Below, in pieces: positions 5,312 through 28,044 of a DNA stretch of 64,000 bases. The stretch comes from Oricola indica (GTDB lineage: Bacteria; Pseudomonadota; Alphaproteobacteria; Rhizobiales; Rhizobiaceae): contig NZ_JAINFJ010000009.1 of the NCBI RefSeq assembly GCF_019966595.1, forward strand, positions 1-64,000, given 5' to 3'. The position numbers and the translations under genes were made by a program. Each line of letters begins with the position of its first letter. Position 1 is the stretch's first letter. The notes beneath the pieces were generated by a model. That model was not told the DNA's origin and did no database searches. It was given only the letters and a program-made list of their open reading frames with translations.

Positions 5312-6847
5312 CTATCCGGCAATGCTCAGCAGACTCCTTCCTCCATGCAGCCAATGGAAGTCTAGCCGCCCAAGGTCCCATTGCACATAGACCCGGCTGA
5401 ACACCTGAAGCATCGCCGCGTTGGCCGCAGGGTAGTCCAGGTCGGATTTGGAAAGCTCCCTCACCAAGTCCTCAAGGCGCTGCTTGCGGGTAATCGGATT
5501 ACGGACGGCTTCAAGCTCCTCCAGCTTCTCCTCCTCCTCCCGGACCTCAGCGAGCCTAGCCTCAAGCTCCCTGAGCCTTTGCCGGACTCCCTCCGCCTCG
5601 CCTTCCGCAAGGAAGTCCACGAGCTTCTCAATCTGGCCTTGGAGGGTCTCTCGCTCCTCCGCCCGCCGGGCCTTCACGTCTGCTACCGTCTTGGAGCCCC
5701 TTGGTGCGCTCTTCGCTAACTCCGAGGCCTGTCCCACAATGGCGGCCTCAAGGTGGTCGATCCTTACACCGTGATACTCGCAACCGGCTCCCGCCTTGGC
5801 CTTAGTGCAGACTAGGTACGGATGGCCGCATTTAGGCCCGGACCCTTTGTTGACGCGGGTCATGGAGCTCCGGCATCGGGGGCACCGAGCGAGGCCCGCC
5901 AAGAGGTGGGAGACTCCCTTGGAATTCCTTAGCCGCACCGAGGGGGCACGCCGACCCTCCCGCATGGTCTGGACGCGAGCAAAGACCTCAGGCTCCACAA
6001 CATTGGGGAAGTAGTCCTCCACGGGTTCCTGAGGCTTCCTCGTGCGCTTGCCCTCCACGTATTCGATGGTGTGCGGGGTGAACCGACCCACCACCGCCGG
6101 GTTCTCCAGTATCTTCACCACGTAGGAGCGATGCCAGAAGGCCGCCCTCCCGAACGGCTTGACACCATCCTTATTGAGACCATCGGCGATGCCATGAGTC
6201 CCCTTCCCTTCAAGATACTCTCGGAAGATACGCTTCACCACCTCCACCCGCTCTGGGACCACCTCATAGGCCCGCCTGTCCTCGCGAAGCTCCAGCCACC
6301 CCGGAGCAAGCTTGGTCATTGGTCTCTTACGGGATGCATTCGCCCGCTTGGCGGTCCATGCATTGCGGAGGCGGTGGGACTTAGTGGCACTCTCCTCATG
6401 GGCACGGATCAAGATCACCACGGCTTCCAATAGATCAAAGCCGTTACCCTGTGCCGACTCCTCCCCGTAGACCCGCCCTGTGGAAACGGTGACCACACGG
6501 ATGCCGGACTTAATGATGTTTCGGAGAAGCGACACCGCATCCCACGGGTCATCGCGGCTCATGCGGTCCAAGTTCTCCATGAGGAGGTACGAGCCGGGAG
6601 GCACTAGCCCCGTGCGGACGGCTTCAAGGAACTCACCAAGCTTGCCGCCGTGGAGATTGGCACCACGGAACGCGGAGACCCCGAGGTCTAGGAAAGACCT
6701 GTTGTCGAGCTTGAGGCCATGCTCACGGGCGTACCGCGCGGCCCCGTCTGTCTGACGCCTAAAGCTGTCACCACGCTGTTGCTCTGGAGTAGAGAAGCGT
6801 AGGTAGGAAAAGGCGAGCGGGGCAGTCGAAACGCTATGCGTGTTCAT
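5312..6847 (-). CDS. Large serine recombinase, probable island integrase (511 aa)
   Basis: The N-terminal resolvase domain has FSYLRFSTPEQQ with the catalytic serine, LMENLDRMSRDDP and the YGEESA region. It is followed by a Recombinase domain (GIADGLNKDGVKPFGRAAFW), a zinc-ribbon domain with CPRCRSS, CGHPYLVC and a later Cys (about residues 320-370), and a coiled coil rich in E, L and R (about residues 400-460). This is the architecture of phage and ICE serine integrases. ATG at 6847 is chosen because the recombinase fold begins there; it overlaps the upstream DUF4145 gene by 14 bases. Its position 630 bases from the comM junction makes it the likely integrase. Confidence 0.92.
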   Translation of the reverse strand: MNTHSVSTAPLAFSYLRFSTPEQQRGDSFRRQTDGAARYAREHGLKLDNRSFLDLGVSAFRGANLHGGKLGEFLEAVRTGLVPPGSYLLMENLDRMSRDDPWDAVSLLRNIIKSGIRVVTVSTGRVYGEESAQGNGFDLLEAVVILIRAHEESATKSHRLRNAWTAKRANASRKRPMTKLAPGWLELREDRRAYEVVPERVEVVKRIFREYLEGKGTHGIADGLNKDGVKPFGRAAFWHRSYVVKILENPAVVGRFTPHTIEYVEGKRTRKPQEPVEDYFPNVVEPEVFARVQTMREGRRAPSVRLRNSKGVSHLLAGLARCPRCRSSMTRVNKGSGPKCGHPYLVCTKAKAGAGCEYHGVRIDHLEAAIVGQASELAKSAPRGSKTVADVKARRAEERETLQGQIEKLVDFLAEGEAEGVRQRLRELEARLAEVREEEEKLEELEAVRNPITRKQRLEDLVRELSKSDLDYPAANAAMLQVFSRVYVQWDLGRLDFHWLHGGRSLLSIAG

Positions 6848-7421
6848 CGGGCTTTGCAGCAGGAACTTTAGCCGGAAACTCATAGATGAATTTGAGGAGC
6901 ATCTCGATGAAGGTGATTAGCTCGGTGGCATCAGCCTCCGTCATCGCCGGAATCTCGTGAGTGGCCTCATTCCCACGCTTCCGAATGTGATCTACCCAAC
7001 CACGACCATGAGGCGGGACATACCCACTGCTTGAGAGGAATTCGACGTATTGTACAAAGCTCTGTCCAGCGTTCGCCCCTTGAGTAACCGCGATGTTCAT
7101 CAGGAGTTTTCTAGAAGCCAAAACTGAGGCTGTGAACGCACCCACCGAGATGCATCTTCGCGCTTCCACGTACAGCCCATCTACATCGCTTGGAACTTCC
7201 GCAACGTTGTTTCCGGGAGCAACTGCCGGAGTGCGGCTCTCATCGCAGAAGTACGTAGGCTGCTCGCAGAGTGGACAGATATATATATACCCGTTGTCTG
7301 AGTTGCCGGGAATATAGTTTCGGGAGAAGAACCCTTGATTGCTCGCGATTTTGTTTTCACAAAAGCCGCACTGATAACTTATCGACGTTAGGCTCGACCG
7401 ATTTACCCAGTCTGCGTCCAT
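6834..7421 (-). CDS. DUF4145 domain protein (195 aa)
   Basis: A zinc ribbon (YQCGFCENK, then ICPLCEQP, spaced about 30 residues) precedes a DUF4145 helical domain: VEARRCISVGAFTASVLASR, FVQYVEFLSSSGYVPP, then GWVDHIRKRGNEATHEIP with the conserved RKxGNxAxH pattern. Length is normal for the short form of the family. The gene overlaps the start of the integrase by 14 bases, so both are made from one message. Co-expression suggests a role tied to integration, excision or protection of the element, which is inference. It starts only 56 bases from the comM junction. Confidence 0.8.
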   Translation of the reverse strand: MDADWVNRSSLTSISYQCGFCENKIASNQGFFSRNYIPGNSDNGYIYICPLCEQPTYFCDESRTPAVAPGNNVAEVPSDVDGLYVEARRCISVGAFTASVLASRKLLMNIAVTQGANAGQSFVQYVEFLSSSGYVPPHGRGWVDHIRKRGNEATHEIPAMTEADATELITFIEMLLKFIYEFPAKVPAAKPDEHA

Positions 7422-7451
7422 GTTGTCCTCCTATTCCACCGCTAGCGCACA

Positions 7452-7488
7452 ATCAGCATCGTAGGTCTCTTGTCAATAATATGCTGAT
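7452..7488. other. Island/comM junction with inverted repeat (candidate att site)
   Basis: ComM-like translation becomes recognisable at AAT ATG CTG ATG (7478-7489). The octamer ATCAGCAT at 7452-7459 is the exact inverse of ATGCTGAT at 7481-7488, one copy on the island side and one in comM. Large serine recombinases act on short sites with imperfect dyad symmetry and leave a 2-base crossover. The exact crossover cannot be set without the left end. Confidence 0.45.
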
Positions 7489-8377
7489 GGTCGGGCCGCC
7501 CGGATCCGGCAAGTCGATGCTGGCCCAGCGCCTGCCATCGATCCTGCCGCCGCTGACGCCGGCCGAACTGCTCGATGTCTCGATGATCGCCTCGATCGCC
7601 GGCCAGCTTGCCGGCGGCAAATTGTCGGATCGCCGTCCCTTCCGTGCGCCGCATCATTCCGCCTCCATGGCGGCGATGGTCGGTGGCGGGCTGCGCGTCA
7701 AGCCGGGCGAAGTTTCTCTCGCCCACAATGGCGTACTGTTTCTCGACGAGTTTCCCGAATTCACGCCACAGGTGCTCGATTCGCTTCGCCAGCCGCTGGA
7801 GACGGGTGAATGTGTCATCGCCCGCGCCAATCACCGCGTCTCCTATCCGGCGCGCATCCAGCTTGTCGCGGCGATGAATCCGTGCCGCTGCGGCATGGCC
7901 GGTGAGCCCGGTCACACATGCGCGCGCGGGCCGCGCTGCGTCGCCGATTATCAGGCCCGCATCTCCGGCCCGCTGATGGACAGGATCGATCTGCGCGTCG
8001 AGGTTCCCGCCGTCACGCCTGGTGATCTGATACGCTCCCGCCCCGGCGAGCCGAGCGCGTCGGTCGCCAAGCGTGTCGCTGCCGCCCGCGCGATCCAGAC
8101 GGAGCGTTATGAAGCGCTCGCGATAAAGGGCGTCACCACCAACCACCACTGCCCGACGGCACTGATCGAACAGGTCGCGGATGTCGATGCCGGAGGGCTG
8201 CAACTGCTGAGCGATGCCGCCGACAGGATGAAGTTTTCGGCGCGCGCCTATCACCGCATCATGAAGGTTGCCCGCACGCTGGCCGATCTCGATGGTGCGG
8301 CGCAGACGGGCCGCATCCATGTCGCCGAGGCGATTTCCTACCGCATTGCCGGCGAGCGGCTGGCGTCCGCGGCATAG
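7478..8377 (+). pseudogene. comM: comM (Mg-chelatase-like competence protein), 3' part, disrupted
   Basis: From residue 1 of the fragment the sequence is a ComM/YifB AAA+ domain: MLMVGPPGSGKSMLAQRLPS (Walker A), the ISS-like SMIASIAGQL, FRAPHHSAS, Walker B LFLDEFPEF, and the zinc-knuckle-like MNPCRCGMAG with CARGPRC. It ends naturally with a C-terminal Mg_chelatase_C region (FSARAYHRIMKVARTLADLD). About 300 of roughly 510 residues remain; the N-terminal Lon-protease-like half is missing and presumably lies beyond the other end of the island. ComM aids branch migration during natural transformation, so the host would have lost that function unless the element excises. The fragment has no evident start site of its own; ATG 7481 lacks a ribosome site. 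Confidence 0.9.
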
Positions 8378-8399
8378 GTTCTCCAGCCGGACAGCACGG

Positions 8400-9059
8400 T
8401 CATCGCAGGCCAAGCAGGGCCGGAAGCGCCCGCATGTCGTCGAACAGAATGGCGCCCGCATCGGCGAGGCCCTCGGCATCGGTCAGCGGATCGGCGGTGT
8501 AGCCGAAGACGCGCATGCCCGCTGCCTTGCCGGCCAGCGCGCCGGCCGGGCTGTCTTCGATTACCGCGCAGCGTTCGGGCGGATGGCCCAGTTCGCTCGC
8601 GGCAAACAGGAACAGGTCGGGCGCGGGCTTGCCCTTCTCGACCATCCATGCCGAATACAGGACGTTCTCAAACAGTGGCAGGAGCCCTGAAACGCCGAGC
8701 GTCAGGTGCATCTTCTCGACCTTCGCCGATGAGGCGACGCAATAGGGCGTGTCGATGGCGTTCAGATAGAGGATGACCTCGCGCACATGCGGGATGGCCT
8801 CCACGCCGGCGGAAAAAAGGTCCGGCAGGCCGGCCAGCCAGCGGTCGGGGAAATCCGCGCCGAGATCGATCCCTTCTTCCTCCAGCAGAATGTCGCGGAC
8901 GCTCTTCATGGTGCGGCCCATGAAGCGCTTGCGGCATTGTGCCATTGTCAGGTCCAGGCCGTGCTCCGCGATGATCGCTGAAAGCCGCTGATTGGCGACG
9001 GTTTCGGTATCGACGAGCACGCCGTCGCAGTCGAAGATTACAAGTTCGGGGGGTGTCAT
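8400..9059 (-). CDS. HAD-superfamily hydrolase, beta-phosphoglucomutase/GPH-like (219 aa)
   Basis: Motif I is FDCDGVLVDTE with both catalytic aspartates, motif II VASSAK, motif III the KGKPAPDLFLFAA lysine, and motif IV VIEDSPAGALAGKAAGM. This is the class of sugar-phosphate phosphatases and phosphomutases with a helical cap (residues 15-85). The substrate cannot be told by eye. The start at 9059 (MTPPELVIF) is chosen because the fold begins immediately; a longer frame reaches into dut. It lies 13 bases downstream of dut and is likely co-transcribed with it. Confidence 0.88.
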   Translation of the reverse strand: MTPPELVIFDCDGVLVDTETVANQRLSAIIAEHGLDLTMAQCRKRFMGRTMKSVRDILLEEEGIDLGADFPDRWLAGLPDLFSAGVEAIPHVREVILYLNAIDTPYCVASSAKVEKMHLTLGVSGLLPLFENVLYSAWMVEKGKPAPDLFLFAASELGHPPERCAVIEDSPAGALAGKAAGMRVFGYTADPLTDAEGLADAGAILFDDMRALPALLGLR

Positions 9060-9531: not shown

Positions 9532-9612
9532 TGCGGCTATCTGCCGCGCCCGCCCGTCTTCCGCAAGCGAAAGACGCAGCAATTCTGTGAGCAACGTCTC
9601 ACATCGGGAGAC

Positions 9613-10080
9613 TCACGCCGCCGCCGCTTCCAGCGCGGCGATGTCGATCTTCTGCATGGTCATCAGCACCGGCCAGACTTTCGACGCCTGCGGGCCGCTG
9701 AAAAGCTCGGCCGCGCGTTTCGGCACGATCTGCCAGGACAGGCCGAACCGGTCCTTGCACCATCCGCACTGGCTTTCCGCGCCGCCGTCGGCGGTGAGCG
9801 CCGCCCACAGGCGGTCTGTCTCCGACTGATCTTCGGTGCTGACCGAGATCGACACGGCTTCGGACAGCTTGAAATGCGGTCCGCCATTGATCGCCTGATA
9901 GGGCGTTCCGGCCAGGGTGAACTCAACCGCAAGCACCTCGCCCGGCTCGCCATGCGTCGCGTTCTCGATATGGCGGCTCACATGGTCGATGCGCGAATCC
10001 GGTATCAGGGAGCAATAGAACTCCGTCGCGGCAAGCGCCCCGTCATCGAACCACAGGCAGGTCTTGACCTTCCGCGTCAT
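9613..10080 (-). CDS. VOC superfamily protein, 3-demethylubiquinone-type domain (155 aa)
   Basis: MTRKVKTCLWFDDGALAATE starts a PhnB-like VOC fold with typical features: FYCSLIPDSRI, VEFTLAGTPYQAINGGPHFK, then LWAALTADGGAESQCGWCKD and RFGLSWQIVP. This subfamily carries the old Pfam label 3-dmu-9_3-mt, although most members do not act in ubiquinone synthesis. It is the last of four same-strand genes (9613-11157) with small gaps. The substrate is unknown; VOC proteins bind metals and act on small molecules such as antibiotics or glutathione adducts. Confidence 0.85.
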   Translation of the reverse strand: MTRKVKTCLWFDDGALAATEFYCSLIPDSRIDHVSRHIENATHGEPGEVLAVEFTLAGTPYQAINGGPHFKLSEAVSISVSTEDQSETDRLWAALTADGGAESQCGWCKDRFGLSWQIVPKRAAELFSGPQASKVWPVLMTMQKIDIAALEAAAA

Positions 10081-10098
10081 GTCGGCGTCCTCCCTGGT

Positions 10099-10452
10099 TC
10101 AGGATCTGGCGATTGTCTCGAAGCCGCCGAAGATCAGCCGCTTTCCGTCGAAGGGCATCTCGCCGAGACGTTCGAAAATCGAGGGATCGTCCTCGAACTT
10201 TTTCCAGCCCGCGTCGCGTGCTTCCTTCGAGGGCCATTCGACCCAGGAGAAGACGACGACCTCGTCATCCTTCTTCTTGACGGCCATCGGAAACGACGTG
10301 ACTTCGCCATCCGGCACCGTCTCACCCCAGCAGTCGACAACGGATGTCGCGCCCAGACTTTTGAAAACCTCGGCGGTGCGTTTCGCATATTCGAGATATG
10401 CCTCTTTTCCATTCGCCGGCGCCGCGGCGACCATTCCGTCTACATAGGTCAT
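10099..10452 (-). CDS. DUF1428 family protein (117 aa)
   Basis: The DUF1428 pattern is clear: MTYVDGMVAAAPANGKEAYL, FKSLGATSVVDCWGETVPDGE, then VVVFSWVEWPSKEARDAGWK and MPFDGKRLIFGGFE. These are dimeric ferredoxin-like alpha/beta-barrel proteins of unknown function (E. coli YbaA-like). It belongs to the VOC-DUF4287-DUF1428-VOC unit, 18 bases from the next gene. Such genes often travel with ArsR-type regulators and SRPBCC proteins; none is next to it here. Confidence 0.88.
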   Translation of the reverse strand: MTYVDGMVAAAPANGKEAYLEYAKRTAEVFKSLGATSVVDCWGETVPDGEVTSFPMAVKKKDDEVVVFSWVEWPSKEARDAGWKKFEDDPSIFERLGEMPFDGKRLIFGGFETIARS

Positions 10453-10484
10453 GATGCTTGTCCTTTAGTGCTTGGCCGCCGAAG

Positions 10485-10715
10485 CTATTGGCTGCCTTCC
10501 TTGTTTGCGCCTTTGAGAAGCGCGACGATCGCCATGGCGTGGCCGTGGCCGAGCCCGAAATCCTGCTTCAGCCAGTCGGTGATCTGCGTCGCCTTCACGC
10601 CCGGGGCGAGCCCGGAGCTGCCGGTGAAGCCTTTTCGGGCGGCCATCGCCTTGAAATCCGCCGGTGATTTGCAGGTCTTGGCCTGTATGTTGTCGAGATA
10701 TGCTCGGAAAGACAT
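10485..10715 (-). CDS. DUF4287 family protein (76 aa)
   Basis: The short protein begins MSFRAYLDNIQAKTCKSPAD and contains GVKATQITDWLKQDFGLGHG and HAMAIVALLK, the full pattern of the DUF4287 domain (a helical module often fused to DUF5655). It lies between the DUF1428 gene and the VOC gene of the same operon. Function is not established. Confidence 0.88.
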   Translation of the reverse strand: MSFRAYLDNIQAKTCKSPADFKAMAARKGFTGSSGLAPGVKATQITDWLKQDFGLGHGHAMAIVALLKGANKEGSQ

Positions 10716-10737
10716 CGGGTTGTCCGCCTCCCTTGCC

Positions 10738-11157
10738 TCAGTTCATCGCCTTGGAACCGGTGAAATTGATCATCCACGGCGTACCGAACCGGTCGGAGAA
10801 CATGGCAAAGCGTTCCGCCCAAAAGGTCTCCTCCAGAGGCATGCGCACGTCACCGTCCCTGGACAGGGCGTTGAAGATCCGCTCTGCCTCCTCAATCGAG
10901 TTCGCCGCCAACGAGATGTTGAAGCCTTGCGGCTTCGTATACCATTCGCCCGGCGCGTCAGAGGCCATGATATTGGCCGAGCCGAGCCGCATGTTCATGT
11001 TCATCACAAGATCGTCGCCGCCGGGCATTCGGCTTTCCGGGTCCGGCGCGTCACCATTCTTGAACACGCTGGTGATCTCGCCGCCGAGCGCCTCGGCATA
11101 GAACGTCATGGCTTCAAGGCAGTTGCCGTCGAAATAGAGATAGATGGTCGGTTCCAT
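10738..11157 (-). CDS. VOC family protein, PhnB-like (139 aa)
   Basis: MEPTIYLYFDGNCLEAMTFY begins the PhnB-like fold; ALGGEITSVFKNGDAP, PGGDDLVMNMNMRLG and the C-terminal RFGTPWMINFTG complete it. The ATG at 11157 is used because homology begins there; a longer open frame runs antisense to prfC and is not believed. It is the first gene of the four-gene unit, with a palindromic operator candidate 50 bases upstream. Some PhnB-like proteins are resistance or detoxification factors, but nothing here identifies the ligand. Confidence 0.86.
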   Translation of the reverse strand: MEPTIYLYFDGNCLEAMTFYAEALGGEITSVFKNGDAPDPESRMPGGDDLVMNMNMRLGSANIMASDAPGEWYTKPQGFNISLAANSIEEAERIFNALSRDGDVRMPLEETFWAERFAMFSDRFGTPWMINFTGSKAMN

Positions 11158-11207
11158 GCGGGTTCCTCTCGCAATGGCTGTGTGGATGAGGCGACTGTAG
11201 ATCGAAG

Positions 11208-11227
11208 ATAGATTGATATCAACGTAT
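11208..11227. promoter_or_regulatory. Palindromic operator candidate upstream of the VOC operon
   Basis: ATAGATTGATATCAACGTAT contains the perfect ten-base palindrome TTGATATCAA flanked by matching ATA/TAT ends. It lies 51-70 bases before the VOC start and about 97 bases before prfC on the other side. Its size and symmetry suit an ArsR/SmtB-type winged-helix dimer, the regulator class that commonly controls VOC/DUF1428/SRPBCC operons. No such regulator gene is in the window. Confidence 0.45.
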
Positions 11228-11323
11228 ATTTGACGAAAAGATGCAGTCGTCGCCCCTCGTGATCGTGTTTGACAGCCGCGCCCGCGCCTGCGAGAAGCGC
11301 GGCAAGTTTTCACGGACACGACC

Positions 11324-12916
11324 ATGGCCGAAAATCTCAAGGACGCCGTCGCGCGCCGTCGCACTTTCGCGATCATTTCCCACCCGGATGCGGGCAAGAC
11401 CACGCTGACCGAAAAGCTGCTGCTGTTCGGCGGTGCGATCCAGCTCGCGGGTGAGGTGAAGGCCAAGCGCAATCGCGTGCAGAGCCGGTCCGACTGGATG
11501 AAGATCGAGCGTGAGCGCGGTATCTCCGTCGTCACCTCGGTGATGACCTTCGAATATGGCGGGCATGTCTTCAACCTGCTGGACACGCCGGGTCACGAGG
11601 ACTTTTCCGACGACACCTATCGCACGCTGACCGCCGTCGATGCCGCCGTTATGGTGATCGACGCCGCGAAGGGCATCGAGCCGCGCACGCTCAAATTGTT
11701 CGAGGTCTGCCGCCTGCGCGATATCCCGATCGTCACCTTCGTCAACAAGATGGACCGCGAAAGCCGCGATCCCTTCGAGATCCTGGACGAGATCGAACAG
11801 AAGCTCGCGCTCGATACCGCGCCTGTGACGTGGCCGATCGGTCGCGCCAAGACCTTCGCCGGAACGTGGAACATGGCCGAGGGCACGATGCGCCGCGAAG
11901 ACGCTCAGGTCGAGCCGGTAAAGGTCAATGGCCCGGAATCGGACGGTGTCTCGGGCCTGCTGCCGGAAAACGAGCGCGAGACCTTCATCGAGGAGGCCGC
12001 GCTCGCGCAGGAAGCCTGCCGCCCCTTCGACAGACAAGCCTTTCTCGAGGGCCATCTGACGCCGGTCTATTTCGGTTCGGCCCTGAAGAACTACGGCGTG
12101 CGCGACCTGATCGAGGCGCTTGGCGATTTCGCGCCGCCGCCGCGCGCCCAGGAAAGTGACAAGCGCGTCATCGAGGCGACCGAGCCGTCACTGACGGCCT
12201 TCGTCTTCAAGATCCAGGCCAATATGGACCCGAACCACCGCGATCGCATCGCCTTCGTACGCGTCTGCTCCGGTTCGCTCGATCGTGGCATGAAGGCGAA
12301 GCTCGTGCGCACCGGCAAGTCGATGACGCTGTCGGCGCCGATGTTCTTCTTCGCCCACCAGAGACAGATCGCCGACAATGCGGTTGCCGGTGACGTGGTC
12401 GGCATTCCGAACCACGGCACGCTTCGCATCGGCGATACGCTGACCGAGGGAGAGGATCTGCTGTTTCGCGGCGTGCCGAACTTCGCGCCGGAAATCCTCC
12501 GCCGCGTCCGCCTCGGCGATGCGATGAAGGCCAAGAAGCTGCGCGAGGCGCTGCAACAGATGGCCGAGGAAGGCGTTGTCCAGCTCTTCGTGCCCGAAGA
12601 CGGCTCGCCGGCTGTTGTCGGCGTGGTCGGCGCGCTGCAGCTCGACGTGCTCAAGGAGCGGCTGAAGCAGGAATACGGTCTGCCGGTCGATTTCGAGGCC
12701 GCGCGTTTCAATGTCTGCCGCTGGATCTCGCATGAGGACCGGGGTCAGCTCGAAACCTTCATGCAGAAACACCGCGCCGCGATTGCACGGGACCTCGACG
12801 GCGACCCTGTTTTTCTCGCCGAGAACGCCTTCTCGCTCAATTACGAGGCCGACCGCGCGCCGGGCATGGTCTTCGACGAAATCAAGGACTATCAGATCCG
12901 CGCCAAGGCCGCCTGA
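11324..12916 (+). CDS. prfC: Peptide chain release factor 3 (530 aa)
   Basis: RF3 is the translational GTPase that removes RF1 and RF2 from the ribosome after peptide release. The G motifs are SHPDAGKTTLTEKLL (G1), the RGISVVTSVM switch (G2), DTPGHEDFSDDTYR (G3) and NKMDRE (G4), followed by domains II and III (FVFKIQANMDPNHRDRIAFV and RPxM-like regions, GAMKAKKLREALQQMAEEG-type helix). Length equals the family norm. The start at 11324 lies in a gap shared with the divergent VOC operon. It is monocistronic. Confidence 0.96.
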   Translation: MAENLKDAVARRRTFAIISHPDAGKTTLTEKLLLFGGAIQLAGEVKAKRNRVQSRSDWMKIERERGISVVTSVMTFEYGGHVFNLLDTPGHEDFSDDTYRTLTAVDAAVMVIDAAKGIEPRTLKLFEVCRLRDIPIVTFVNKMDRESRDPFEILDEIEQKLALDTAPVTWPIGRAKTFAGTWNMAEGTMRREDAQVEPVKVNGPESDGVSGLLPENERETFIEEAALAQEACRPFDRQAFLEGHLTPVYFGSALKNYGVRDLIEALGDFAPPPRAQESDKRVIEATEPSLTAFVFKIQANMDPNHRDRIAFVRVCSGSLDRGMKAKLVRTGKSMTLSAPMFFFAHQRQIADNAVAGDVVGIPNHGTLRIGDTLTEGEDLLFRGVPNFAPEILRRVRLGDAMKAKKLREALQQMAEEGVVQLFVPEDGSPAVVGVVGALQLDVLKERLKQEYGLPVDFEAARFNVCRWISHEDRGQLETFMQKHRAAIARDLDGDPVFLAENAFSLNYEADRAPGMVFDEIKDYQIRAKAA

Positions 12917-22388: not shown

Positions 22389-23018
22389 ATGGACAGCGTC
22401 ACCGTCGTCGATCACCCGCTCGTGCAGCACAAGCTCACCTTCATGCGCAAGAAGGAGTCCTCGACGGCCGGGTTCAGGCGGCTGTTGCGCGAGATTTCGC
22501 TTCTGCTCTGTTACGAGGTGACACGCGAACTGCCGATGACGATGGAAACGATCGAGACACCGCTGGCCGAGATGCGGTCGCCGGTGCTCGAAGGCAAGAA
22601 GCTCGTTTTCGCCTCTGTGCTGCGTGCCGGCAACGGCCTGCTTGAAGGCATGCTCGATCTCGTTCCATCCGCCCGGGTCGCCCATATCGGTCTCTATCGA
22701 GACCATGAGACGCTGGAGCCGGTCGAATACTATTTCAAGGCACCGGAAGACCTCTCCGACCGCCTTGTCATCGTCGTTGACCCGATGCTGGCGACCGCCA
22801 ATTCGGCCATCGCGGCAATCGCAAAACTGAAGGAACGTGGCGCAAAGGACTTGCGCTTCGTCTGCCTGCTCGCCGCGCCCGAGGGCGTGAAGAAGTTTAC
22901 CGAGGCGCACCCTGACGTGCCGATCGTCACCGCGTCGATCGACGAACGCCTGAACGAGAAGGGCTATATCGTTCCCGGTCTCGGCGACGCCGGCGACCGC
23001 ATGTACGGCACGAAGTAG
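22389..23018 (+). CDS. upp: Uracil phosphoribosyltransferase (209 aa)
   Basis: Upp converts uracil and PRPP to UMP. The start [19 protein letters not shown], the [16 protein letters not shown] helix, [13 protein letters not shown], the PRPP loop [18 protein letters not shown] and the uracil-binding [20 protein letters not shown] tail are all canonical, and the length is exact. It follows add by 101 bases in the same direction. With the cdd-to-deoA operon further right it belongs to a nucleoside salvage region. Confidence 0.97.
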
Positions 23019-23047
23019 CGGCCCGGCCGCTCCGACAGAGTGTTGCG

Positions 23048-24091
23048 ATGGGCAATGCCATGCCTGACGAAAGACCTCGCCTGACGCCGTCGCAACAGCG
23101 GTTGCTCTGCCGATTGGCGGATCCGGAAGGCGGGCCGCTGGCAGCGGATGCGTTTCCCGTCGCGGAAATCGAACCGGTCCTGCATGCCGCGCGCGACCAC
23201 AATGTCGAGCCGGTCGTGCTTCGCAAGATCGCCGGGATCGGACTGTCGGACAACGCGGAATTCGAGCACTACCGCTCATCGGCCGTCAGGGACCGCATGT
23301 TCCTGTCGGCGGTCACCAAGGCGCTGGCGGATCAGGCTTCGCGCATCGCGCGGGCGCTGGGCGAGGCAGGCGTTCCATATGCCCTGATCAAGGGCCAAGC
23401 CTTCGCCGAGGAGTTGTATCCCGACCCGTCGGACCGCCCCTATTCGGATATCGACATCCTTCTGCCGAGAGCTGCGTTGGCGCGCGCCGGGGAGATCATG
23501 CAAACGCTCGATTTCGTCCAGTTCAAGCGCCAGCATTTCGACAAGTCCGAGGCCAACGAGGAACAGAAATGGGGATATGGGGGCGACACCTCCCTTCTCG
23601 CCGAACTGCATACCGATATCGTTCATGTCCCGGCTTTGCGACGCCGGGTGTCTTTCGGGTTCGATGAGTATGATCTGGCGCGCGGCGGCGGCCTGTGGCC
23701 TGCCGCCGGGCATTTTGTCGTCGCGGTCATACATGCCGCCGCGGGCCACAAGTTCCATCAGCTCCGGCTGCTTGTCGATGTGCTTCAGGCGACTCGCAAA
23801 CTGTCCGACGACAGCCTGCGCCATTTGGCGGACACCGTCTCGCGCCTGCACATCCAGCCCGAAGTCTCGATGTCGCTATCGCTGATCGACGGCCTTTTTC
23901 CGCAGGCGCTTCCCGATGGCCGGATAAAGGTCATTCGCGACGCGCTTCGCCTGCCTTCCTGCTGGAAAATCGTCACGCCTCAGGCGGTGCTGGAAGCGAC
24001 GGGCGAAGGCTACTGGCGTTCGAAATTCCTGCGCCACGCATTCCGCTATTACCAGATGACACTCGCGCCGAGGCGAAGCCTGGGAGCTTGA
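23048..24091 (+). CDS. Nucleotidyltransferase family protein (347 aa)
   Basis: The central part carries an NTP_transf_5-type minimal nucleotidyltransferase core: PYALIKGQAFAEELY then DRPYSDIDILLPRA with the paired aspartates. Long helices surround it (residues 70-110 and 230-330). This family accompanies PqqD-like proteins and HprK-like kinases in several RiPP and exopolysaccharide-linked clusters, including some lasso peptide loci; its acceptor is not known. It starts 29 bases after upp and faces the kinase/GT fusion gene with an 11-base gap. ATG 23060 is an alternative start. I place it in the precursor-modification cassette. Confidence 0.8.
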   Translation: MGNAMPDERPRLTPSQQRLLCRLADPEGGPLAADAFPVAEIEPVLHAARDHNVEPVVLRKIAGIGLSDNAEFEHYRSSAVRDRMFLSAVTKALADQASRIARALGEAGVPYALIKGQAFAEELYPDPSDRPYSDIDILLPRAALARAGEIMQTLDFVQFKRQHFDKSEANEEQKWGYGGDTSLLAELHTDIVHVPALRRRVSFGFDEYDLARGGGLWPAAGHFVVAVIHAAAGHKFHQLRLLVDVLQATRKLSDDSLRHLADTVSRLHIQPEVSMSLSLIDGLFPQALPDGRIKVIRDALRLPSCWKIVTPQAVLEATGEGYWRSKFLRHAFRYYQMTLAPRRSLGA

Positions 24092-24102
24092 GGCAATTCC
24101 GG

Positions 24103-26502
24103 CTAGGCCTTTGCGTAGTGCTCCTGACCCTTGAAATTCGCTTGTGTGGTCAGTTCCGGCTGGATAGCGAGCATCGGCTCGGTGAGTAATTTTCGCACAT
24201 CCAGGCGGCCAAGATATTGATCGATGCCGTGATGTATTTTGAGCCAGGACGCCATTGAATCGTGATCGTCGGGAAGGTCTCCCAGTATGCGGTCAAAAAC
24301 CGTATGATTCACCGCGTAGGACTGCAGGCTCGTTAGGAATTTCGCTTCACGGAACATGCTGCTGCCCGGAACCATATCGAAATCCCTGCCCCATACGGTT
24401 GCGCCGAGATAAAGCAGGTCCCAGTCGGTCTTTTCGAGCTCGTCCATAACGACCGGCATGAACTCCATGATCCGGTCATGAAAGATGACGTCATCCTCGA
24501 AGATGAATACGTTTCTCAAACCGCGCTGCCGGGCGTCAGCGATGATCGCGCGATGAGAAAGCGCGCAGCCGATATGGTGATTTTCCGGGGTCTTGATAGC
24601 GGGCAACCGCTTGACCAGCCGGGAGATGCCGATTTTCTCGAAACGCTTGTCGACGGCGGCATACCGGTCGGATCGATCATCGAGATTTATGCACCGTAGT
24701 GCATCGAAGCGGTTGAACGGATTCTGAAGTTCGACATCGATCTCCTCCATTGCGCGCTTGGTGAATTCCTTTCCGAGCAGTTCGCCGAAATGACTTTCTA
24801 TTGGTCCCTCGTCGAGGCCGAGTTCGCGATGACCGATTATGTAATTCCGGATTCTGTCTTCCCAGATCGGCCTGTATGGGATTCCCATCGGCCGTTGAAA
24901 ACGGTGCAGCCATCTCAGAAATGGCAGGCACAGCGTTCGGTCGCCCCGCTGTCGGAATTTTTCGTGAATGTAGCCTTCTTCGCCGCCGAAGCCGCGGAAC
25001 TTCAAGTTGAATCCTGGCCAACTGTCGCGTTTGCACACAAACAGCCCGAGACCTTGCATCGGAACCTCGAAGGGCTCGGCATCAACATCCCTTGCCCTTT
25101 CGTCGACGCCCCACGTGCCGTACATTCCATTGTTCCACTCCGGCTTGAAATGCGTGGAAATCTGATCCAGCCAGTCATAAATCAACGGACCCTGATACAA
25201 ATCAGTGCTGTCGGGATGTGCGTCGAGAAAGTCCATAAGGCGTTTGAGAACGCCGGGCGGGAGCAGCACATGACAATCCATGCACAGCACGAAATCGCCG
25301 CTGGCTTCGGAAAAAACGACATCCCTGATTGCCGTACCTGACTGACCGGTAAAGGGGACGTAGCGGAGGGTCTTACAGTGGTTCTCGAGTGCCTTGAGAT
25401 CATCGCCGCATGGTCCGTCCGGGTGATTGTCGATGACGAGAAACTCGATATCGTCCATCAACTCCGGATTGTTCAGGCGTAACGACTGCAGTGTGAAATA
25501 GACACCGTCGAAATCGTCGTAAGTCGCCATCCCGATTGTCAGTTTGAATTTCCCTCGCGACGGGGTCGCCGCATTCACTTTCGTCGGAGCACGCACGGGA
25601 GGAGCGGCCTGGACGGATGGTAAAGCCTGATTTTGTCCAAAGGCAGAGTGGATCCTGTGCCAGGATTTCGGGTCAGGCGCGTTCTCGATGATATCGTCGA
25701 TGACATCTTCGAGAACCCCTTCCAGCTGTCCGAATTCTCCATAACGGAGTTCAAAGGCGGGGGTCGAATTGGCGATCTGGGCCAGGCTTGCGAGGCCACC
25801 ATCGGCCAGATTTGCCCCGTTCAAATTGTTTTCGAGCAGGCGCAAAGCGGCCTGGCTGGGACTCAGTGGGCGAATTGAGATATCGGCATCCGCGTGGAAG
25901 GCCGGAAAAATGATCGCACCTGGCGTCAGAGTTTTGCCGGAATATTCGCTCGGAATGGCAACGTGGCTCTTGTCGCCAAATGAATGCTGGTTCGAATTGT
26001 CGAAACCATCTTCTTCAAGCGCCCTGACTGAATCCGCCCGTAGCACCAATGGCCTGCGAAACGGTGTGACTTGCAACGGGTCGGCCAATGGGACGAAGAC
26101 GATCTCGTCCGTGCAATATCGGAAGCCGTTTGTCGCCAACCAGGCTGTCAGCGTGGATTTACCGGCACCGGAAATACCTGCGACAAGAATTGCCTTGCCC
26201 TGCCGCTCAACGGCCGCCGCATGAAGTATGACGCCTTTGGACTGATCGGTCACCAGGCCTCGAATGACCGCATCCATGGCGAATTCGGGTAGGTCGCTCG
26301 CCTTCAGGTCCGGCACTGGTGGCGAAAAAGGGGTCTCGATAAGAAACGAATCGTCACCAGTCTGCGTGATCGAAACCGAGTGGTTGGCGGTGACGTCGAA
26401 CGCCCTTTGGTATCCGAACAGATACCCGGCCATTTCACCAAAGATATCCGGAACTGTCAGAGAAACCGTCTGACCGGCTAGTTCGATGAGCAACTCAGGC
26501 AT
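24103..26502 (-). CDS. HprK-like kinase / GT2 / GT25 three-domain fusion (799 aa)
   Basis: Three enzymes appear in one chain. Residues 1-285 form an HPr-kinase-like domain: GVILHAAAVE, Walker A GISGAGKST (109-117), the YCTDEIVFVP aspartate-glutamate and an FRRPLVLR stretch. A 30-residue proline/alanine-rich linker follows. Residues 318-560 are a GT2-fold glycosyltransferase with LTIGMATYDD, EFLVIDNHPDGP, the DxH-type metal motif MDCH (409-411) and GFGGEEGYIHEKF; DxH and GGE also occur in eukaryotic polypeptide GalNAc-transferases. Residues 598-799 are GT25-like: ALRCINLDDRSDRY, GCALSHRAI and the FIFEDD motif (668-671). GT25 also includes collagen galactosyltransferases. The gene lies behind the Thr-rich precursor gene on the same strand, with a terminator between them. 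Protein or peptide glycosylation is inference; lipopolysaccharide or capsule sugars are the alternative. Confidence 0.82.
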   Translation of the reverse strand: MPELLIELAGQTVSLTVPDIFGEMAGYLFGYQRAFDVTANHSVSITQTGDDSFLIETPFSPPVPDLKASDLPEFAMDAVIRGLVTDQSKGVILHAAAVERQGKAILVAGISGAGKSTLTAWLATNGFRYCTDEIVFVPLADPLQVTPFRRPLVLRADSVRALEEDGFDNSNQHSFGDKSHVAIPSEYSGKTLTPGAIIFPAFHADADISIRPLSPSQAALRLLENNLNGANLADGGLASLAQIANSTPAFELRYGEFGQLEGVLEDVIDDIIENAPDPKSWHRIHSAFGQNQALPSVQAAPPVRAPTKVNAATPSRGKFKLTIGMATYDDFDGVYFTLQSLRLNNPELMDDIEFLVIDNHPDGPCGDDLKALENHCKTLRYVPFTGQSGTAIRDVVFSEASGDFVLCMDCHVLLPPGVLKRLMDFLDAHPDSTDLYQGPLIYDWLDQISTHFKPEWNNGMYGTWGVDERARDVDAEPFEVPMQGLGLFVCKRDSWPGFNLKFRGFGGEEGYIHEKFRQRGDRTLCLPFLRWLHRFQRPMGIPYRPIWEDRIRNYIIGHRELGLDEGPIESHFGELLGKEFTKRAMEEIDVELQNPFNRFDALRCINLDDRSDRYAAVDKRFEKIGISRLVKRLPAIKTPENHHIGCALSHRAIIADARQRGLRNVFIFEDDVIFHDRIMEFMPVVMDELEKTDWDLLYLGATVWGRDFDMVPGSSMFREAKFLTSLQSYAVNHTVFDRILGDLPDDHDSMASWLKIHHGIDQYLGRLDVRKLLTEPMLAIQPELTTQANFKGQEHYAKA

Positions 26503-26527
26503 TTTGCCAGCCGTATGCAGTCTTCCA

Positions 26528-26559
26528 AAAACAAGATGGCCAGCAAAATGCCGGCCATC
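26528..26559 (-). terminator. Terminator/attenuator between precursor and fusion enzyme
   Basis: On the minus strand GATGGCC and GGCCATC (26553-26559 and 26535-26541) form a seven-base-pair stem around 11 bases, followed by TTGTTTTT. It lies after the precursor stop and before the kinase/GT start. Partial read-through would give much precursor and little enzyme, as in many RiPP operons. Confidence 0.65.
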
Positions 26560-26611
26560 GCGATATAATCGCTAAAGCAGTCTGATCAGTTTTCGATCAA
26601 TTCCCTTACGC

Positions 26612-26836
26612 CTAGGTGGGCGTCGTGGTTACAGTCGTCGAAGTGGTCGTGGCCGTAGTCCCGGTCGTAACAGTGGTCGGCGGCGCGGAAGAAGCCGCAT
26701 GCGCCGGCGTGATCACCGAATCGACGATTGGCTTTGTCCACTTGCCCGGCAACATGACTGCCGTTGCGACGCCGCCGATAGCGACCGTTGTCATCACCTG
26801 CCTGCGGCTGATGTTCTTTTTGTTGCCTTCCGACAT
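26612..26836 (-). CDS. Tat-type secreted precursor with Thr-rich mucin-like tail (74 aa)
   Basis: AAGGGG precedes ATG 26836. Residues 1-47 form a signal or leader: a charged start (EGNKKN), SRRQVM at 10-15 resembling a twin-arginine motif, a hydrophobic stretch and WTKPIVDSVITPAHA ending at Ala47, a good AxA signal peptidase site. The predicted mature part (48-74) has 27 residues, 15 of them threonine and three serine, with prolines at 52, 53 and 73: a mucin-like, unfolded sequence with many O-glycosylation or phosphorylation acceptors. It is followed by a terminator and then the kinase/GT2/GT25 fusion gene. Divergently transcribed is a PqqD-like protein. I propose it as the substrate of the fusion enzyme. 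Confidence 0.75.
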   Translation of the reverse strand: MSEGNKKNISRRQVMTTVAIGGVATAVMLPGKWTKPIVDSVITPAHAASSAPPTTVTTGTTATTTSTTVTTTPT

Positions 26837-27067
26837 GGACTACCCCTTATTGAAATCTTGTGGCTTTGTTACGAATGCCCCAAAGCCCTTAACGTCAGGT
26901 AACATCGCATGGGGGACGCGGCAAGTTCGAAATCTTGTTGTTCGAGACGAAAGCCCTTGTCGGCAGCCAAAATGGTTGACGGGAGACGCCTTGGCGTTGG
27001 AGTTACCGGATGAAATCACGATCCGTGAATGAATGCATCCATTGAACCGAACGAGCAGAGCAGGACC

Positions 27068-27355
27068 ATGACCGCAAACGAATCAGGCGGAAAGCTGACG
27101 CGCAATGAAGCCTTCTATACGGTGGAAATGGATGGCAACACGCTGCTCTACCGCCCGACATCGCAGAACGCCGTTCATCTGGATTCCGTCGCCTCGTTGA
27201 TCTGGAAAATGTGCGACGGCACGCGCACCGCCGGGGAACTGGCGGGTGAACTGGCCGAAATCTATCCGGAAAGCGCGGATACCGTGAAATCGGACGTGCT
27301 TGAGACGGTCAAGACGTTGCTGCAGAGCGGAGCGATATCGGCCGGCGGTGCCTGA
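27068..27355 (+). CDS. PqqD-family protein (95 aa)
   Basis: The compact winged-helix PqqD fold is recognisable: FYTVEMDGNTLLYRPTSQNA, VHLDSVASLIWKMCDGTRTA, the helices GELAGELAEIYPESADTVKS and VLETVKTLLQSGAI. PqqD-type domains bind leader peptides and hand them to modifying enzymes. Start choice is uncertain: ATG 27029 would add 13 residues. The gene is divergent from the Thr-rich precursor, sharing a promoter region of about 190 bases. Together they suggest a leader-dependent modification pathway. Confidence 0.85.
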   Translation: MTANESGGKLTRNEAFYTVEMDGNTLLYRPTSQNAVHLDSVASLIWKMCDGTRTAGELAGELAEIYPESADTVKSDVLETVKTLLQSGAISAGGA

Positions 27356-27495
27356 TTCGCCTCTGATCACGTTGAATCGCTCAATTTTCCGGTGGTTCGC
27401 TGTTGAAGCGTTAACCGCCTTTCGGGAATTGGCGGCCGTTTAACCGGTGAAAAAGCGCGGCATGCGAAAACGCCTTCGGCAAGGAGGCCGCGCCG

Positions 27496-28044
27496 ATGTT
27501 GCGCTATCTTTTCATCGTTGTTTCCGTGTCGATTTCCGCGCTCGGCGTGGTGTCGTTCCTGAACGACAATCCGCATGTCGTGGACACGGCCGCGATCGCG
27601 CTGAAAGATCGCGTGGAAGCCGATTCCGCCCGCCGCGCCGCGGTAAAATCGAAAGAACCGGTCCGCGCATGGTCCGGCACTGAACGTCTTCGTGCGGACG
27701 CGCGCGGCCACTACATCGCCGAATTCAGCCTGAATTCGCGTCGTGTCACCGGCGTCGTCGATACCGGCGCGACGATGATCGCCATGAACCGGTCGCAGGC
27801 GCGCAGGGCGGGCATTCATGTTTCACCTTCCGAGTTCATCTACACCGTCAACACAGCCAACGGTTCGACGAAGGCCGCGCGCGCCATCGTGCGAGAGGTG
27901 CGTCTGAGCTCAATTCGCGTGCGTGACGTCGAGGCGATGATTCTGGAAGACGATTCGCTCAACATCGTGCTGATCGGAATGAGCTTCCTCAAGCGTCTGC
28001 GAAACTTCGAATTCTCCAATGGCCAGCTGGTGATGAAGCTCTGA
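27496..28044 (+). CDS. Retropepsin-like aspartic protease, TIGR02281 type (182 aa)
   Basis: An N-terminal membrane anchor (YLFIVVSVSISALGVVSFL) is followed by a clan AA aspartic protease domain: VTGVVDTGATMIAMNRSQAR with catalytic DTGA, then a conserved LIGMSFLKRL near the C-terminus. Such proteins probably dimerise through a retropepsin fold. AAGGAGG at 27481-27487 lies nine bases before the ATG. The gene is 140 bases behind the PqqD-like gene on the same strand; the family is common in Hyphomicrobiales outside such cassettes, so membership in the precursor system is unproved. Confidence 0.88.
   Translation: MLRYLFIVVSVSISALGVVSFLNDNPHVVDTAAIALKDRVEADSARRAAVKSKEPVRAWSGTERLRADARGHYIAEFSLNSRRVTGVVDTGATMIAMNRSQARRAGIHVSPSEFIYTVNTANGSTKAARAIVREVRLSSIRVRDVEAMILEDDSLNIVLIGMSFLKRLRNFEFSNGQLVMKL

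Follow-up and report, generated by a model that had tools for sequence, protein, structure and literature searches.

Dense O-glycosylation of Thr/Ser/Pro (T/S/P) repeats is a hallmark of eukaryotic mucins and is associated with the polypeptide N-acetylgalactosaminyltransferases (GalNAc-transferases) of glycosyltransferase family 27 (GT27), in which a DxH motif and a later histidine are metal ligands and a C-terminal ricin-type lectin domain is usual. Glycosylation in the cytoplasm before export is also familiar from glycocins and serine-rich repeat glycoproteins, where a ribosomal peptide or a Ser/Thr-rich protein is modified by other transferases and leaves by other exporters than those considered here. 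We describe a four-gene cassette of Oricola indica (Alphaproteobacteria, Rhizobiaceae) that lies in the first 64,000 nucleotides of contig NZ_JAINFJ010000009.1 (assembly GCF_019966595.1; this whole stretch is hereafter the window) and most likely works like mucin-type O-glycosylation. We consider it probable that the cassette makes a mucin-like O-glycopeptide: guided by PqqD, sugars would be attached to the mucin-like tails while these are still in the cytoplasm. Metazoan-like O-GalNAc glycosylation of Ser and Thr is said, in a passage of PMC5504323, not to occur in bacteria, so that the claim made here is directly testable.

Among bacterial systems, the ribosomally synthesized and post-translationally modified peptides (RiPPs) that depend on a PqqD-type RiPP recognition element (RRE) resemble the cassette in their PqqD, in a short precursor with a conserved leader and a WxxP motif, in a variable core, and in neighbouring modifying enzymes. 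RRE-glycosyltransferase fusions are named in excerpts of PMC7470986 and PMC12710340, in one phrase each, and the terms HprK and kinase are absent from the main texts of both. Unlike the cassette, the RRE systems in these excerpts have no mucin-like precursor and none with a leader of the twin-arginine translocation (Tat) type. Paeninodin and pseudomycoidin, phosphorylated or phosphoglycosylated lasso peptides, share with the cassette an HPr-kinase homologue and a nucleotidyltransferase (PMC8498205, in part). The cassette differs from lasso peptides in its Tat leader and in its many Thr in place of one C-terminal Ser, and no match to a lasso B protease or C cyclase was found among its four genes in Pfam or NCBIfam. 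No description of the cassette system was found among the papers listed in a literature search outside which most subscription papers and bioRxiv lay. Its features are as follows.

23048..24091, plus strand: NTP_transf_5 nucleotidyltransferase-like protein, 347 residues (PF14907, 88.3 bits against a cut-off of 31.2, residues 40-284).
24103..26502, minus strand: 799-residue fusion of an HprK-like domain, a GT2 domain with a GalNAc-transferase-like predicted fold, and a GT25 domain (Pfam, NCBIfam; AlphaFold2 model with a mean predicted local distance difference test score, pLDDT, of 90.9).
24133..24726, minus strand: GT25 domain of the fusion (PF01755, Glyco_transf_25, 35.2 bits, cut-off 24; match to procollagen galactosyltransferase 1, COLGALT1, at E 4e-5).
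24718..25557, minus strand: GT2 domain of the fusion, with D409-x-H411, GGEE and W531-x-H533; GalNAc-transferase-like by profile comparison with PDB, modelling, Foldseek and motif counts.
25711..26334, minus strand: HprK-like domain of the fusion, residues 57-264 (TIGR04352, E 5e-29), with the Walker A motif intact by regular expression.
26535..26559, minus strand: terminator-like hairpin between the peptide and fusion genes, an 11-pair stem followed by TTGTTTTTGG.
26612..26836, minus strand: precursor peptide, 74 residues, from the list of open reading frames (ORFs), with AAGGGG at 26843-26848, 5' of its ATG.
26615..26695, minus strand: Thr-rich tail, 27 residues, 15 of them Thr and 3 Ser by composition, the proposed O-glycosylated part.
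26696..26836, minus strand: Tat-type leader, residues 1-47, with RR, a hydrophobic stretch, WTKP and PAHA (TIGR01409, 18.4 bits, cut-off 16.7).
26729..26740, minus strand: WxxP, residues 33-36, the proposed PqqD recognition motif from leader comparison.
27029..27355, plus strand: PqqD-like (RRE) protein, 108 residues, divergent from the peptide and fusion genes (PF05402, 53.3 bits, cut-off 23.4); its start is ambiguous between 27029 and the in-frame 27068.

The anatomy agrees with an initial annotation made from the letters and ORFs alone, which had claimed four ORFs between 23048 and 27355, all of which are in place: a precursor with a twin-arginine-like leader, an AxA site and a 27-residue tail of the composition given above, a single HprK-GT2-GT25 enzyme, a divergent PqqD-like protein and an NTP_transf_5-type protein. 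It had further proposed that the tail is O-glycosylated and/or phosphorylated before export and that a secreted, mucin-like peptide results. The glycosylation half gains support from the predicted GalNAc-transferase-like fold, the DxH motif and the co-occurrence described below; the phosphorylation half is weaker and not universal.

Relatives were collected by scanning a genome collection of 84,980 species with alignment A1 and two GT2-domain patterns; 95 were found, and the best 80 loci were kept and, with the window, give 81 loci. By record title these belong to Alpha- and Gammaproteobacteria, Desulfobulbaceae and relatives, Acidobacteria, Actinobacteria, one Bacteroidota, and others. Locus counts come from our own hidden Markov models and the best domains only, and not all loci are independent: L019 and L039, L038 and L044, L045 and L051, L059 and L088, and L075 and L089 come from one genome each, and L036 and L041 have near-identical peptides. 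Refetched duplicates were counted once (L140 is L025; L152-L154 are L068, L070 and L080). Closer to home, among 151 genomes (the window's and 150 relatives), the fusion was matched in seven, with the GT2 part covered in three, the window included.

Within the fusion, Pfam recognizes the GT2 domain as Glycos_transf_2 (36.1 bits, cut-off 23.3) in the same chain as the GT25 match. A model of this domain, built from an alignment (A2) of 71 of the 73 non-redundant GT2 domains, with two truncated ones (L072, L081) excluded, had a mean pLDDT of 94.7. When it was searched with Foldseek against PDB, the matches listed (50 of 1608) were all polypeptide GalNAc-transferases, with E values of 1e-13 to 4e-11 among those listed and template modelling (TM) scores by query of 0.62-0.73. 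Structure prediction, which the initial annotation had recommended, accordingly points to a GalNAc-transferase-like fold. Its motifs are strongly conserved: DxH and the GGE glutamate are present in 71 of 71 sequences and the later histidine in 68, and in a profile alignment to GalNAc-T10 they fall on DSH, GGE and GHIYR, the histidine being read by eye. The invariant aspartates of two control alignments of ordinary GT2 enzymes (A5 and A6) read D-x-D or DDD, in contrast to the DxH of the cassette enzymes, and the A5 profile does not reach the GalNAc-transferases.

The second line of evidence is the company the GT2 gene keeps. Under a strict criterion applied to all ORFs of at least 50 residues (T/S/P of at least 70% over 20 residues, Arg of at most 7%, and a hydrophobic run upstream), 51 ORFs were found in the 424 kb within 3 kb of GT2 versus 8 in the 562 kb beyond (binomial P 6e-12), in a set that was not hand-pruned and includes doubtful ORFs (e.g. 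L027 11457, L095 10581 and one in control locus L016). The counts are 25 versus 1 for ORFs that no longer ORF overlaps, and 45 versus 5 under an earlier Tat-based criterion. A strict ORF is present at 43 of the 81 GT2 loci; of 20 control HprK loci that have no such GT2, two carry one (Fisher P 3e-4), the controls being all from the window's order and the 81 loci from many phyla, which tells against the comparison. Candidates, defined as leader-type or signal-bearing T/S/P-rich ORFs within 3 kb of GT2, occur at 55 of 81 loci: 43 of the 49 with PqqD versus 12 of the 32 without. Leader-type peptides are included here whatever their tail, and a Tat-type candidate that reads like an antisense ORF (L066 7068-7625) had been dropped. 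The Tat-type peptides with T/S/P-rich C-termini that the initial annotation expected in homologous clusters are therefore present.

The peptide itself is more than a chance ORF, because it has homologues in the congener G005 and because 46 leader-type peptides, spread over 31 of the 81 loci, were found at GT2 loci. One G005 locus holds NTP_transf_5, an HprK-GT2-GT25 fusion, PqqD and three tandem Tat-type peptides that retain the window's leader and differ in their T/S/P-rich tails; a second holds PqqD, HprK-GT2, NTP_transf_5 and a Thr/Glu-rich peptide, and both lie elsewhere than the upp site occupied in the window. After PAHA, the window's tail uses the Thr codons ACG (6), ACC (5) and ACT (4), a mixture that rules out a simple one-codon DNA repeat. 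The invariant columns of 16 leaders (alignment A4) read R, R, P, W, P, P, A, H, A; WxxP follows the hydrophobic stretch and precedes PAHA, a cleavage-type site. All 45 distinct leader peptides contain WxxP, which is seen in one of 46 RR-type N-termini of other kinds; the contrast is partly circular because the peptides came from a profile containing WxxP. In a search of the whole class for the leader, 1 of 385 genomes matched, the window's own; only 17 candidates were scored in those listed genomes that had many at first look, so this figure for rarity is soft, and the positive controls gave four matches in G005, one in G089 and a weak one in G111 (E 0.008).

Tails with a window of at least 60% T/S/P (over 20 residues or the whole tail) occur in 37 of the 46 leader peptides; many are tandem repeats, and some follow a longer stretch, the post-leader part reaching 187 residues. 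Loci of Rhodococcus and Ilumatobacter have other Tat-like leaders with similar T/S/P tails, and in L027, L038, L042, L044, L053 and L083 PqqD, an RR-type leader and a T/S/P tail form one protein. The leader is conserved far better than the tail, as would be expected if the tail were a spacer and PqqD and its enzymes modified the leader or another protein. We regard this as extremely improbable, since tail composition tracks the presence of GT2, and at six HprK-GT2 loci without PqqD (L060, L063, L064, L066, L075 and L078) nearby proteins with N-termini that look Sec-like by eye are also T/S/P-rich at their C-termini. The T/S/P-tailed secreted proteins of L060, L064, L066 and L075 are related to one another and look outer-membrane-like by eye.

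Against the proposed mucin-like O-glycosylation stand several observations. The best PDB match of the A2 profile is a probable beta-1,3-GlcNAc-transferase (6h1j), with GalNAc-T10 second (E 7e-5). The A6 profile also reaches the GalNAc-transferases (best E 5.3e-11, behind 30 other sequences), so that the sequence link between the GT2 domain and these enzymes does not appear to be specific. No ricin-type lectin domain was matched in the fusion by Pfam up to E 1. No candidate was found by the combined leader, Tat and strict criteria in 26 of 81 loci, and the three Labrys loci L068, L070 and L080, whose flanks are complete, lack any sort of candidate. Of the 57 loci flanked by 2 kb or more on each side, 33 have a strict ORF and 24 do not, and 9 of the 46 leader peptides have tails poor in T/S/P. 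The donor side is mixed as well. In favour of the proposal, UDP-hexose 4-epimerase-like genes occur at 10 of 81 loci (eight within 3.2 kb and, in L076 and L088, fused to GT2; one 7 kb away in L092 is left out); against it, their gate residue, read by regular expression, varies, being Ser in three, Ala in four (all Rhodococcus), Val in one and Leu in two. The single galE-family gene of the window's genome has, by eye, Ile at this position. Use of UDP-GalNAc goes with a small Cys or Ser at the gate as opposed to a bulky Tyr or Leu, and Leu fits UDP-Gal only (PMC6668579, in part).

Some of these points, namely the reach of the ordinary GT2 profile, the 6h1j match and the gate Leu of the two GT2-fused epimerases, would suit a different reading. 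In it the tail is glycosylated under PqqD guidance, but sugar and stereochemistry differ from those of mucin O-GalNAc (O-Gal, O-Glc and O-GlcNAc being examples), and only the fold is shared with GalNAc-transferases. We judge this quite unlikely, as the listed structural matches are GalNAc-transferases throughout, DxH is invariant in the cassette enzymes where the two control alignments have other motifs, and seven of the ten epimerases have a small gate residue (Ser or Ala).

The control loci are instructive about the tails. Their Tat-type peptides are Gly/His-rich in 6 of 20 (L015, 9823-10095; L139, L142, L147, L148 and L155) and nearly tail-less in L138 and L144; no convincing peptide was seen in the remaining ten. 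The strict ORF of L016 is doubtful and overlaps longer ORFs. That of L013 is a Tat peptide rich in Ser and Pro that shares the WTKP/PAHA leader, and this locus (7312-7617, 7761-9011) has HprK, PqqD and, in place of GT2, a PF11397 GlcNAc glycosyltransferase (E 1.2e-67) of a family that we take to include peptide GlcNAc-transferases. It is possible that this protein is a second type of enzyme doing the job of GT2. Because the tails of the control loci differ with the enzyme set, tail chemistry appears to go with the enzyme, as far as a single order can show. The Gly/His-rich Tat peptides of loci with HprK and NTP_transf_5 and without GT2 constitute a sister peptide family.

The GT2 proteins of the 81 loci vary in architecture: GT2-GT25 (32), HprK-GT2 (28), PqqD-GT2-GT25 (7), HprK-GT2-GT25 (6), GT2 alone (5), PqqD-GT2 (2) and GT2-GT25-PqqD (1). 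PqqD is fused to GT2 in 10 proteins and, counting both fusions and genes within 4 kb, accompanies it at 49 loci; GT25 is present at 47 loci and, within the same distance, HprK at 46 and NTP_transf_5 at 29, the window included. Sulfotransferase-like genes lie within 1.7 kb of GT2 or are fused to it at 10 of 81 loci (that of L043 being a weak partial match), and L021 encodes a single chain of HprK, GT2, GT25 and Sulfotransfer_2. The 25 neighbour clusters listed, judged by eye, include epimerases, sulfotransferases and other glycosyltransferases.

Enzymes of polysaccharide synthesis also bear the family names GT2 and GT25 (LPS biosynthesis), a GT4-like glycosyltransferase cluster accompanies three loci, and further GT2 clusters accompany three and four. 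It could accordingly be proposed that a surface polysaccharide or lipopolysaccharide is what the glycosyltransferases make, with the Thr-rich proteins as bystanders or anchors. The initial annotation had raised the case of GT domains conserved solely with lipopolysaccharide genes; they are found instead with PqqD and peptides, and no polysaccharide polymerase, flippase or lipid-carrier transferase was recognized by eye in the 25 neighbour clusters listed, which do not cover all clusters. With T/S/P ORFs concentrated at GT2 and with both PqqD-GT2 and PqqD-tail fusions in existence, we consider the polysaccharide explanation very unlikely.

PqqD domains occur in other proteins near these genes. 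L025 (4626-6101) encodes, inside the cassette, an AraC-type regulator with a C-terminal PqqD domain, perhaps a leader-sensing regulator. L036 encodes three more proteins with a C-terminal PqqD domain (5398-6528, 9554-10687 and 10694-11701), one with a GT-like and one with a PIG-L-like N-terminal part, both under Pfam cut-offs.

The HprK part of the window's fusion scores below the Pfam Hpr_kinase_C cut-off (15.9 of 33.3 bits) and, at 101.3 bits, below the 200-bit cut-off of TIGR04352 (HprK-related kinase A), a cut-off exceeded in none of 297 genomes drawn from the window's order. With its Walker A motif and the neighbouring NTP_transf_5 gene, it allows a pseudomycoidin-like scheme in which the main modification is phosphorylation by HprK followed by NTP_transf_5-mediated hexose transfer to the phosphate, the GT domains merely decorating. 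Several findings make this scheme unlikely. Walker A was not matched by regular expression in 6 of 34 fused HprK domains, 47 of the 81 GT2 proteins have no fused HprK, and within 4 kb, contig ends included, 35 of 81 loci are without HprK and 52 without NTP_transf_5. The Tat-type peptides of GT2-free HprK/NTP_transf_5 loci are Gly/His-rich or nearly tail-less, and the lasso kinases, in the part of PMC8498205 seen, target one C-terminal Ser, whereas cassette tails have many Thr. L012 (9329-11146) encodes an HprK-GT2 protein in which the P-loop motif is not kept, and neither a leader peptide nor PqqD was found in the 18 kb examined there.

The anatomy of the cassette, the predicted fold, the conservation of the motifs and the co-occurrence are the observations from which a mechanism can be sketched; contact between PqqD and the leader, the acceptor residues, the order of the steps, Tat rather than Sec export, and the roles of GT25, HprK and NTP_transf_5 are what we infer. 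PqqD would bind the precursor leader, probably at WxxP, and hand the precursor to the fusion enzyme; W/Y/LxxP-type recognition sequences are reported for many RREs (PMC12710340, in part). The GT2 domain, with its GalNAc-transferase-like fold and DxH metal site, would then add the first sugar to many Thr and Ser of the tail, a step placed in the cytoplasm because the nucleotide sugars are there. GT25 may extend the chain with a second sugar, and HprK and NTP_transf_5 may furnish some residues with phosphate or a phospho-linked sugar. Once modified, the peptide would leave by the Tat route and be cut after AHA; TatC is encoded in the window's genome. The first sugar may be GalNAc, Gal or another, and the activity of GT2 is a prediction.

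The likeness to eukaryotic GT27 lies in the predicted fold, in the positions of DxH, GGE and the later histidine, and in acceptors rich in Thr/Ser/Pro repeats. The differences are that no lectin domain was found in the fusion and that GT2 is fused to HprK, PqqD or GT25, and that the cassette is bacterial, comes with PqqD and would, as proposed, do its work in the cytoplasm, ahead of export. We have kept it out of GT27 because the lectin domain is missing and activity is only predicted, and regard it instead as a new class of PqqD-guided peptide modification. COLGALT1 (GT25) shares the order of two GT domains: the full fusion model aligned with both in order over 571 columns (E 2.6e-19). The superposition had a root-mean-square deviation of about 22 and a TM score of about 0.2, so that, as modelled, the two GT domains do not superpose as one body and have no common orientation with those of COLGALT1. 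The NCBIfam families of HprK-related kinase A and SynChlorMet (TIGR04352, TIGR04248 and TIGR04249) match the HprK or PqqD parts at E 5e-29, 5e-7 and 2e-7, far under their curated cut-offs (101.3 of 200, 29.8 of 100 and 30.5 of 125 bits), and the PqqD reaches 32.5 bits with the PQQ-biosynthesis family TIGR03859, under its 46-bit cut-off.

A broader proposal, which we hold tentatively and rate at slightly short of an even chance, is that bacteria of several phyla have their own mucin-type O-glycosylation, in which GT2 enzymes with the GT27 fold and metal site are steered by PqqD to secreted peptides and proteins with mucin-like tandem repeats; GT25 would lengthen the glycan, sulfation would follow in some cases, and donor epimerases are encoded at some of these loci. 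In this proposal these enzymes may be a sister group or source of eukaryotic GT27. If true, the dense O-glycosylation typical of mucins would also be performed by compact, leader-guided bacterial cassettes, which would yield a new class of ribosomal glycopeptide, supply single-chain enzymes with which E. coli might be made to produce mucin-like polymers, and open an approach to the origin of GT27.

The cassette occupies a 4.5 kb gap between upp and a gene for a TIGR02281 aspartic protease (23018-27496). The same gap measures about 120 bp in G004, 170 bp in G003, 0.9 kb in G002, 1.0 kb in G005 and 3.6 kb in G001, and cassette genes matched nothing in the interval of these five congeners; the cassette is therefore an insertion at a variable site. 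The GC content is 0.55 for the fusion, 0.58 for pqqD, 0.61 for the peptide gene and 0.63 for NTP_transf_5, versus 0.62-0.66 for neighbours that we take, from their sequences alone, to be ubiB, add, upp and deoA, so that only part of the cassette stands out. The TIGR02281 protease, which adjoins PqqD, was considered as the peptide-processing enzyme and rejected, as it stays near upp in the five cassette-free congener sites.

A scan of the region for hairpins gave 8 terminator-like sites versus 4.9 (standard deviation 2.7) in shuffled sequences, a number not above chance. Runs of at least four T occur in 13 of 22 intergenic regions between peptide and enzyme genes on the same strand, and L021 and L037 each show a clear stem with T's after it; a hairpin in this position could keep the peptide in excess of the enzyme. 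At the upp site, other large ORFs fill the interval in G001 (677 and 438 residues) and G005 (314 residues); the congener intervals compared here are those of L163 (4610-8174), L167 (7403-8411), L165 and L166.

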